Assembly (NCBI RefSeq): GCF_018132105.1
Contig: NZ_JWHL01000013.1
Span: 1 to 64,000, forward strand
Origin: Methanocalculus chunghsingensis
GTDB lineage: Archaea > Halobacteriota > Methanomicrobia > Methanomicrobiales > Methanocorpusculaceae
Direction: 5' to 3'
Length of the DNA: 64,000 bases
Shown here: piece by piece, positions 30,181-52,540 of the stretch
Layout: every line of letters begins with the position of its first letter
Numbering within the stretch: the first letter of the stretch is position 1
Made by a program: the position numbers and the translations under genes
The notes under the pieces: model-generated
What the model was told of the DNA's origin: nothing
The model's database searches: none
The model's input: only the letters and a program-made list of their open reading frames with translations

Positions 30181-31430
30181 CCGCAAGTTACAATACCCAC
30201 CTGTTCACGATCTAACAGGCAGGAAGCCCACGACTTCAGTCGTGGGATGAATGCTGCCATAGATATCATTAAATAAATAGAACACATAGATCTATATAGT
30301 GCTTCTAACGGTGAAAATGAAACTCCATCCAACCGAGGATCAACACCAGAAACTACTTCGTACAATGGAGCGTTTCAACGAAGCATGCAACTACGTTTCT
30401 GAATTCGCGTGGAGAAACAGGATCTTTAACAAAGTCGAACTTCAAAAGAACCTGTACTACGATATTCGCGGTACATTCAACCTATCATCTCAAATGGTAG
30501 TCCGTTTAGTAGGTAAGGTATCTGAAAGTTATCTTGCAGATCGATCCTGTTACCATGAGTTTAAACCTCATGGAGCAGTCATCTATGATCAACGTATCCT
30601 GACCATAAAGACTCTTGATACCTGTTCTATCCTGACACTTGAAGGAAGAGAGATGGTATCGATGTCATACGGCAGATACCAACCTCTCGATCTTAAACGG
30701 GTAAAGGGTCAGGCTGATCTCGCCCTCATCAAGAACCAGTTCTATCTCCTGATCGTGGTAGACGTACCTGAAGAACCACAGATTGAGCCTGAGGAGATCA
30801 TCGGAGTCGATCTCGGTATCGCCAATATCGCAACAACATCGACAGGTGAAACCTTCTCCGGGCAGAAATGTACTGAATCCAGAAAGAGATACACCCGTAT
30901 TAAAGCGGATCTTCAATCCGTTGGTACATGGGACGCAAAAAAACATCTCAAAAAACTCAGTGGAAAAGAACGCCGATTCAAGAATGATACAAACCACTGT
31001 ATCAGCAAACAGATCGTCGCTGAAGCCAAAGGCACACACTCCGGTATCGCGTTGGAAGATCTGACAGGTATCCGTGATCGGACACCCGGTTATAAGGCAT
31101 TAGCAGCGGCAATCGGTAAATGGGCGTTTTATGAGATAGCAATGTACATCCGATATAAAGCACATATGGCTGGTATCCCGGTCTACCTCGTTGATCCCCA
31201 CTATACATCCCAACAATGTTCCCATTGTGGATATACGAGCAGGGAAAACCGGAAAACCCAGTCTGACTTCTTCTGTATCAAATGTGGACATACGGATAAC
31301 GCGGATATCAATGCCGCAAAAAACATTGCATCAAGGGCTGATGTCAACCAGCCTATCGCACTCCGTCCTGAACCAAAGCGCTCAGGAAGATGGAAGGGTA
31401 AGCCCACGGCTTTAGCCGTGGGTAGTTGAC
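30181..31430 (+). mobile_element. IS1341-type (IS200/IS605 family) element with tnpB only
   Basis: The element carries tnpB and no tnpA. Upstream hairpins mark the left end: CCTGTT/AACAGG (about 30200-30219) and CCCACGAC-TTCA-GTCGTGGG at 30227-30246. The right end is the hairpin CCCACGGC-TTTA-GCCGTGGG at 31403-31422 followed by TAGTTGAC. The left limit is approximate. Without tnpA it cannot move by itself unless helped from elsewhere. Confidence 0.82.
30299..31429 (+). CDS. tnpB: RNA-guided TnpB nuclease (IS605 OrfB)
   Basis: A 376-residue TnpB. The RuvC residues are all visible: Asp in GVDLGIANIATTS, Glu in ALEDLTGIRDR and Asp in DNADINAAKN. A four-cysteine zinc ribbon (CSHCGY and CIKCGH) sits between the last two. 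It should be an active omegaRNA-guided DNA nuclease. The C-terminal codons (KPTALAVGS) are read through the right-end hairpin, so the gene's 3' end also encodes the guide RNA scaffold. The GTG start at 30299 gives the usual LLTVKMKLHPT N-terminus. Confidence 0.95.
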   Translation: MLLTVKMKLHPTEDQHQKLLRTMERFNEACNYVSEFAWRNRIFNKVELQKNLYYDIRGTFNLSSQMVVRLVGKVSESYLADRSCYHEFKPHGAVIYDQRILTIKTLDTCSILTLEGREMVSMSYGRYQPLDLKRVKGQADLALIKNQFYLLIVVDVPEEPQIEPEEIIGVDLGIANIATTSTGETFSGQKCTESRKRYTRIKADLQSVGTWDAKKHLKKLSGKERRFKNDTNHCISKQIVAEAKGTHSGIALEDLTGIRDRTPGYKALAAAIGKWAFYEIAMYIRYKAHMAGIPVYLVDPHYTSQQCSHCGYTSRENRKTQSDFFCIKCGHTDNADINAAKNIASRADVNQPIALRPEPKRSGRWKGKPTALAVGS

Positions 31431-51398: not shown

Positions 51399-51917
51399 TT
51401 ATTTCCCTTTTTTGAGCTTTTCAAGAGATTTAAGAACCGATTTGCGGACCCGTTCACTCTCATCCCCTTCTGCAGAAAGCAGGGCGTCTTCCGCGGCATC
51501 ACCCCCGATCTCTCCAAGAGCCCATGCAGCCTTCTCCCGGACCAGCCGATCGGGATCTCTGGCGAGAAGAGTGGCAAGTGACTCCACGGCTTCTGGATCA
51601 GCAATCCCACCAAGCCCTTCAGCTGCACCGATCCGTTGCCATTTATCATCATCATCGAGCATCGAAATCAGGTGGGGAACGGCCTCGGGATCTCCAAGCC
51701 TGCCAAGCGATTTTGCAGCGATCCAGCTGACATCAACATGGGGATCAGAGAGTGCTTCAATGAGAGGGCCGACAGCCCGCTGATCACCTTCTTCCCCAAG
51801 AGCTTCCGCAGCCCGCCATCGATAATTCAGTGTTCCTTCACGAAGAAGTGTTATCAGATGAAAGAAGAGCTCATCCTTCCTAACAGTACTATTCACACGT
51901 TCAACCACCATACACAC
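51399..51917 (-). CDS. HEAT-repeat (PBS lyase type) protein
   Basis: A 172-residue protein of four to five HEAT repeats of about 31 residues, each with the pattern RxxAAEALGxxGDxxAVxxLIxxL (RWRAAEALGEEGDQRAVG, SWIAAKSLGRLGDPEAVP, QRIGAAEGLGGIADPEAVE, REKAAWALGEIGGDAAED). It is likely an adaptor or binding protein; a lyase role is not implied. The downstream region ends in a basic tail. Confidence 0.9.
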   Translation of the reverse strand: MCMVVERVNSTVRKDELFFHLITLLREGTLNYRWRAAEALGEEGDQRAVGPLIEALSDPHVDVSWIAAKSLGRLGDPEAVPHLISMLDDDDKWQRIGAAEGLGGIADPEAVESLATLLARDPDRLVREKAAWALGEIGGDAAEDALLSAEGDESERVRKSVLKSLEKLKKGK

Positions 51918-52044
51918 CTACGCCGCATACGACACAGGGTATCATAAATGTGCTGATCGCGATCCTCTTATACCCCGACCTCACGATCAAACGTGTGTAA
52001 GGCACTTCCTCCGGGGAGACAACGGTTATTATGCACATATCTAC

Positions 52045-52141
52045 GGGCTGTCTATCAACCAGCCTATCGCACTCCGCTCTGAACCAACCCGGATCAGAGA
52101 GATGGAAGGGCAAACCAATGACTTTAGTCGTTGGTAGTTGA
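52045..52141 (+). ncRNA. Orphan TnpB right end / omegaRNA-like sequence
   Basis: A 22-nt block (52055-52076) is identical to 31344-31365 in the 3' end of tnpB. Similarity continues through GATGGAAGGG to a hairpin ACCAATGAC-TTTA-GTCGTTGGT (52114-52135) and TAGTTGAT. The hairpin differs from the tnpB one by paired changes. No tnpB body or left end is present. It is either a relic or a kept guide-RNA gene. Confidence 0.75.
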
Positions 52142-52153
52142 TATGATACTCAT

Positions 52154-52540
52154 ATGGAGACCAAGAGAGGTGAAGAGTGCCGCACCTTTGCGGTAACGCC
52201 GGGTGAGAAGATCGATATTCTCGAGCTTGAAGAGCTTGGTAGGCGATATAATATTGTCATTTACCTGTACTTCGAGGATGAGCTCGCCAGAAAAGTATCA
52301 ATCTCCGACGATCTCGCCACATATAAAGACGTTCCTGAATATGAACGCCCCTTTATCCGGCTTGAGTCATTTATATCTTTTGCAGGCAGTCAGGATCCAG
52401 GGTTTCGGGATAAGCTCTCAGAACTCCCGCTGATCCTTGAGGTCATCGCCTGTGGCGAAGCAGTCATTGAGGGTGAAGAGCGCCGGTATATCACCACACT
52501 GATGCCATTTCTTGACGAGATGGACGCCCTTGAAATCTGA
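52154..52540 (+). CDS. Conserved protein of unknown function
   Basis: A 128-residue acidic, probably cytoplasmic protein with alternating strands and helices (RYNIVIYLYFEDELARKVS, LPLILEVIACGEAVIEG). I do not recognise it. It begins 13 bp after the orphan TnpB right end, which has replaced or displaced its upstream region, and it converges with the zinc transporter permease. Confidence 0.6.
   Translation: METKRGEECRTFAVTPGEKIDILELEELGRRYNIVIYLYFEDELARKVSISDDLATYKDVPEYERPFIRLESFISFAGSQDPGFRDKLSELPLILEVIACGEAVIEGEERRYITTLMPFLDEMDALEI

Follow-up and report, generated by a model that had tools for sequence, protein, structure and literature searches.

The 64,000-nt stretch of Methanocalculus chunghsingensis DNA analysed here (NZ_JWHL01000013.1, positions 1 to 64,000; the window) carries, at positions 51985-52142, what is very probably a copy of a homogeneous PATE, a non-autonomous element of the IS200/IS605 family. 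The features of this locus and of a tnpB element in the same window, all on the plus strand, are as follows.

51981..51984, plus strand: target TCAC, the cleavage site CL and presumed TAM, host DNA at the left flank (from the empty site in the sister species G007; TCAC also flanks all other copies)
51985..52142, plus strand: window PATE copy, 158 bp, a left-end-truncated member of a family of 227-232 bp
51985..51992, plus strand: left-end remnant GATCAAAC (from the alignment of copies)
51993..52038, plus strand: predicted RNA 5' domain, H0, a GTGTGTA / TGCACAT-type stem with an inner CTTCC-TCCG-GGGAG hairpin (RNAalifold on 8 PATE copies and fold of the window copy)
52046..52064, plus strand: H1 hairpin, GGCTG...CAGCC, common to tnpB right ends (20-sequence covariation)
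52077..52099, plus strand: H2 hairpin, CTCTGA...TCAGAG, with the strongest covariation
52111-52114, plus strand: guide GR, CAAA, the 5' foot of H3 (IS608 rule, PMC5934647)
52114..52135, plus strand: H3 hairpin, ACCAATGAC-TTTA-GTCGTTGGT, which at the same time is the subterminal palindrome of the right end for TnpA
52139..52142, plus strand: right cleavage site CR, TGAT, the element end (empty sites and GR/CR covariation)
52143..52162, plus strand: host DNA in guide position, ATGATACTCATATGGAGACC, which takes in the start codon (52154) of a 128-aa open reading frame (from the mapped right end)
30209..31430, plus strand: tnpB-only IS605-type element with TCAC target, whose LE is 100% identical to the PATE LE over 50 nt
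30299-31429, plus strand: TnpB, the candidate protein partner (Pfam PF07282 and PF01385; intact reading frame)

Neither tnpA nor tnpB nor any other protein-coding gene lies between the ends of the window element, and the same holds for the full-length copies. The bounds 51985-52142 were set by empty-site comparisons. For four elements (the window copy, L003, L004 and L030) a clean empty site was found in another species, and each of them sits directly 3' of TCAC, ends in TAGTTGAT (TTGAT) and lacks a target duplication. The window copy falls short of the full length because about 72 bp are missing between GATCAAAC and GTGTG, a deletion that removed the LE hairpin, the guide GAAG and the TATA-like spacer. 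Since the site is empty in G007, the insertion is either recent or was lost in that species, and the window copy appears to be a young insertion. Without left hairpin and TATA-like box this copy should be immobile, so that mobility has probably been lost, and its RNA could come only from a neighbouring promoter. The insertion point is 11 bp upstream of where the 128-aa open reading frame (52154-52540) starts; this frame has no Pfam match and has close matches in seven of eight Methanocalculus genomes.

A multi-copy family of tnpB-less elements

A preliminary description of this DNA had called the locus an orphan TnpB-type guide-RNA end. We indeed find a tnpB right end with guide-RNA scaffold that stands without tnpB, and its identity with the tnpB 3' end (52055-52076 to 31344-31365, TCAACCAGCCTATCGCACTCCG) was reproduced. 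However, it is not a lone locus: a search of the same genome (2.13 Mb, 51 contigs) returned four further tnpB-less copies with 96-97% identity, five with the window copy, as well as four tnpB-linked copies with 83-85% identity. That description had missed the mobile multi-copy PATE family, its defined ends, the left-end truncation of this copy, and H0, H1 and H2 upstream.

From 5' to 3', a complete copy of 227-232 bp consists of an LE hairpin (GATCTAACAGGCAGGAAG-CCCACGAC...GTCGTGGG), an AT-rich spacer of about 40 nt, about 50 nt that are absent from tnpB and about 98 nt resembling the tnpB 3' end. The RNA predicted for complete copies is about 150 nt long, of which 98 nt match the tnpB 3' end. 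Near-terminal palindromes are found at both ends of the family members, with the left one missing in the window copy.

G007 contains two complete PATE copies and one truncated copy. One orthologous insertion (L005/L057) is present in both species, with 2 mismatches in 239 positions, compared to 30 in 300 in the right flank and 9 in 299 in the left flank; as it is not clearly less diverged than the left flank, we did not use it as evidence for selection. A divergent complete copy was detected on an IMG/VR contig (IMGVR_UViG_3300000477_000008, L116:6600-6830). There it seems to lie within a protease-like gene (phrog_20754) and to disrupt it, and PATEs may therefore travel on archaeal viruses.

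A covariance-model search of 232 genomes of the order gave matches in 38. Most of the right ends checked are linked to tnpB, solo right ends occur singly in relatives (L111, L112, L114, L141), and multi-copy PATEs were found only in the window genome and G007 among the genomes searched. The element had no match in a plasmid collection, and a PATE-specific pattern was absent from GTDB genome contigs (own genome and near relatives set aside) and, in one form of the pattern, from IMG/VR. Rfam covariance models gave no match to positions 51900-52300 at E <= 1.

Additionally, three elements of about 44 bp were observed in G007, at L067:1497-1549 (C1:235476), L068 (C22:11514) and L069 (C1:83898), in which LE is fused to RE through one hairpin (TCAC followed by GATCTAACAGGCAGGAAGCCCACGACTTCAGTCGTGGGTAGTTGAC). 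They probably arose when the LE and RE hairpins, which are identical, recombined, much as solo LTRs do.

This kind of element is already known, both as PATEs and as PATE-like elements with a tnpB 3' end, and the value added here is the evidence at the RNA level. The Haloquadratum walsbyi PATEs, in the portion of their description drawn on here (PMC3119063), likewise lack a transposase gene, terminal inverted repeats and target duplication and have near-terminal palindromes; among them are insertions restricted to one strain or species, homogeneous types with multiple copies and short terminal-only forms produced by repeat-mediated deletion, and the 44-bp hairpins resemble the last of these. 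Unlike the present analysis, that portion of the account, which predates the discovery of TnpB function, is silent on a guide-RNA scaffold or its conservation. A PATE-like element of Halanaerobium hydrogeniformans (about 271 nt; PMC7290912) also combines an LE hairpin with the last 58 nt of tnpB and the whole right end; it is described as a single copy, and the sections consulted report neither RNA analysis nor a multi-copy family nor empty sites.

Element ends, transposase and nuclease

In IS608, the cleavage sites TTAC (left) and TCAA (right) pair with the tetranucleotide guides AAAG and GAAT at the feet of the hairpins (PMC5934647). The same GL-CL and GR-CR pairing was found here, and relatives that carry TnpA use IS608's own combination of TTAC and AAAG (n = 10). 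PATEs and tnpB-only elements differ from IS608 in using TCAC with GAAG (n = 14), with one PATE exception; the left-end guide rule is not followed by L004 and by the window copy with its truncated end. The right-end pairs are CAAG/TGAC in tnpB copies (n = 18) and CAAA/TGAT in PATEs (n = 7), again distinct from IS608; five cases depart from this, several of which are solo right ends. As the shifts at both ends keep the IS608 pairing, they place the family in IS200/IS605 and indicate its mode of movement. At the level of sequence, the target TCAC without duplication, the end hairpins and the guides following the IS608 rule thus establish the PATE as an element that would be moved by a Y1 TnpA supplied in trans, through single-strand 'peel and paste'. 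Columns 71 and 100 of alignment A3, together with the tabulated LE and RE pairs, document that within one archaeal order the guides and cleavage sites of the transposase have changed in a compensatory manner at the DNA level.

A complete TnpA with matching ends was not assembled in the window genome or in the sister species. In the window genome only part of a TnpA is present, at the edge of a contig and with a left end of different sequence; TTAC-type TnpA elements occur in Methanocalculus. The candidate TnpB partner proposed in the preliminary description is encoded in the same genome (30299-31429) and by inspection has the RuvC-type motifs GVDLGI, LEDL and NADIN. It is the one complete TnpB in a set with three partial ones, at least two of which are cut by contig ends. 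Two partial tnpB copies (G000 C15:2 and C4:62281) run into contig ends, which suggests that the assembly breaks at tnpB repeats and that the copy number of tnpB and TnpA may be underestimated.

Base pairing in the guide-RNA region

Covariation was analysed in an alignment of 20 sequences, seven from PATEs and 13 linked to tnpB, and it supports H1, H2 and H3. Base pairing is kept across relatives (96.9% of cells paired), with both-sided changes in 11 of 21 pairs, as the preliminary description would lead one to expect. The covariation score was 0.402, with shuffled alignments reaching 0.187 and slid partners no more than 0.13, and the base-pairing covariation in the scaffold is real. All seven pairs of H2 have both-sided changes across the set; in H1 this applies to one pair, U-A to C-G in relatives. 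Both hairpins lie outside the TnpA site of the IS608 model. RNAalifold placed an additional GCACTCC/GGAAGGGC stem around H2, which is nearly invariant and therefore uninformative. Most of the covariation lies between tnpB lineages; within the PATEs alone it is thin owing to the high identity of the copies, with one double change, in H2 of the viral copy.

Among six complete copies, 15 of 150 columns vary in the RNA region, compared to 14 of 41 in the adjacent spacer (Fisher P = 4e-4, an approximate value because the copies are related). A TATA-like box lies about 24.5 nt upstream of TGTGCA, the predicted RNA start, at a similar distance in several copies, and in the viral copy it reads exactly TTTATATA. 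When folded, the window RNA exceeds shuffled sequences in stability by a small margin only (z = -1.83). Covariance model R1 gave 104 bits for the window copy, a score obtained by construction since PATEs are part of the model's own alignment, and 112-115 bits for the best tnpB-linked copies.

The preliminary description had based its case on H3. Both loci do close with a TTTA-looped hairpin of nine pairs and then TAGTTGA, and this pattern occurs at these two loci only in the window (0.01 expected). Compared to the 30.3-kb tnpB copy, pair 3 has changed from C-G to A-T as described, and pair 5 from C-G to the wobble U.G; the second double change, at pair 7, is G-C to A-T and not C-G to A-T. The outermost pair is G.U in the tnpB copy and A-U in the window copy. 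Yet against the consensus of its own family (CCAACGAC/GTCGTTGG), the window H3 differs in one base, a C to T change that gives the wobble. The pair-3 change is common to the whole PATE family and pair 7 varies among tnpB copies as well (CCCACGAC vs CCCACGGC), so that neither is an independent compensation at this locus, and we rejected the reading that this pair of changes proves a function of the RNA there. The argument that random decay would have broken the stem does not hold either, given the apparent youth of the copy and its three substitutions in the RNA part, two of which lead to wobbles while one breaks an H2 pair (A.A mismatch at 52083/52093).

Moreover, H3 is also a DNA hairpin read by the IS200/IS605 transposase. 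Its conservation alone is therefore no proof of an RNA, and the DNA-level constraint that TnpA places on H3 and its foot weakens the stem argument further. H3 has mismatches in some PATE copies (L004, L116). Since the RNA region is also homologous to the C-terminal codons of TnpB and H3 serves TnpA, not all of the conservation is specific to RNA. What points to the RNA level is the pairing of H1 and H2 together with the lower variability of the RNA region relative to the spacer. From the sequence comparisons we conclude that the PATE family joins IS200/IS605 ends to a conserved guide-RNA scaffold.

Possible roles of the PATE RNA

Elements that cannot move on their own are generally regarded as bare ends. 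By its sequence and covariation the PATE has kept more than these, namely the whole tnpB guide-RNA scaffold (H1, H2 and H3) together with a 5' domain. Complete copies would most likely give rise to an omega-RNA that takes its guide from the host DNA immediately right of the element. A TnpB produced by tnpB elements in this genome may load that RNA in trans, a step to which we give a little under an even chance. By analogy with ISDra2 (PMC8612924), the loaded TnpB would cut the TCAC-plus-flank site left by PATE excision, and repair of the cut would copy the PATE back, leading to its retention. The ISDra2 reRNA is similar in length (about 150 nt) and in comprising the tnpB 3' end and the right end, with the flank as guide and a TAM equal to the transposase target (PMC8612924); unlike ISDra2, with its target TTGAT, the scaffold here stands without tnpB and the target is TCAC. 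The full reading, in which the family is a mobile and self-contained guide-RNA gene with its own archaeal promoter and omega-RNA that hijacks TnpA in order to move and TnpB in order to be retained, both in trans, is tentative and, taken as a whole, rather unlikely.

The strongest competitor is that the tnpB 3' part is a functionless leftover of an internal deletion and that the element spreads passively through recognition of its ends by TnpA. We consider this quite possible, if somewhat less than evenly so. TnpA alone explains H3, the solo 44-bp LE-RE elements of the sister species demonstrate that remnants without scaffold arise easily, and PATEs formed by repeat-mediated deletion are among those described for H. 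walsbyi (PMC3119063, in the portion drawn on here). It accounts less well for an RNA region about 3-4 times less variable than the spacer of the same element, for pairing in H1 and H2 that is kept outside the IS608-type TnpA site, with a double change in the viral copy, and for the TATA-like box that precedes the RNA.

Another explanation concerns the window copy, whose RNA could be made from a host promoter as a leader or guide that controls the downstream 128-aa gene. The insertion lies just ahead of an open reading frame with close matches in most Methanocalculus genomes, and the deletion sets the RNA 5' end about 25 nt past a TTATA box that, where the site is empty, would drive a leaderless gene. 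From this spacing one may only guess that the RNA is made from the promoter of the downstream gene itself. Because the insertion is found in a single species, the arrangement is not conserved and the TATA box is weak in relatives, such a co-opted regulator is very improbable, and a fusion of the RNA to a host promoter, by which the host gene may carry an omega-RNA leader, is much less likely than the reading proposed for the family.

Decay of one full tnpB element into a solo right end, of which relatives offer examples (L111, L114, L112, L141), is contradicted as a local origin by the empty site in G007 and by four nearly identical copies that share a 5' part absent from tnpB, which indicate insertion as a PATE, and we give it hardly any weight. 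A short peptide, the C-terminal tail of TnpB, is very improbable as the conserved product: the frame INQPIALRS..REMEGQTNDFSRW is open in all copies, but its start codon is not conserved, the upstream frame is broken in two copies and out of register in the viral one, and conservation tracks the stems via compensatory changes.

With regard to targets, the DNA in guide position at 52143-52162 recurs nowhere else in the genome as an exact match, and the window guide has no match on viral contigs. The guide of the orthologous copy matched three viral contigs at one homologous site over 14 guide bases only, which we judged to be chance.

Should the guide RNA kept by PATEs still work, TnpB would be a shared good exploited by elements without the gene, and counts of guides limited to tnpB-adjacent loci would miss part of the TnpB repertoire. 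An element whose RNA is used by TnpB would be a parasite of two proteins encoded elsewhere. The family provides a clean test set, with one intact TnpB, several PATE guides and mapped empty sites, in which the solo hairpins without scaffold are natural controls, and it separates DNA-level (TnpA) from RNA-level (TnpB) constraint within one right end. Meers et al. (2023) are said to have discussed PATEs beside TnpB elements. Altae-Tran et al. (2021) reportedly described trans-acting stand-alone omega-RNA loci, where the guide-RNA locus lies apart from the nuclease gene, for IscB and not for TnpB.

The window genome also contains an IscB-like gene (L010:216-1533; G000 C12, about 84495-85812, minus strand) encoding 351 aa with an RRXRR domain. 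It sits between left and right ends that resemble those of the tnpB and PATE elements, and IscB and TnpB elements therefore seem to share end sequences.
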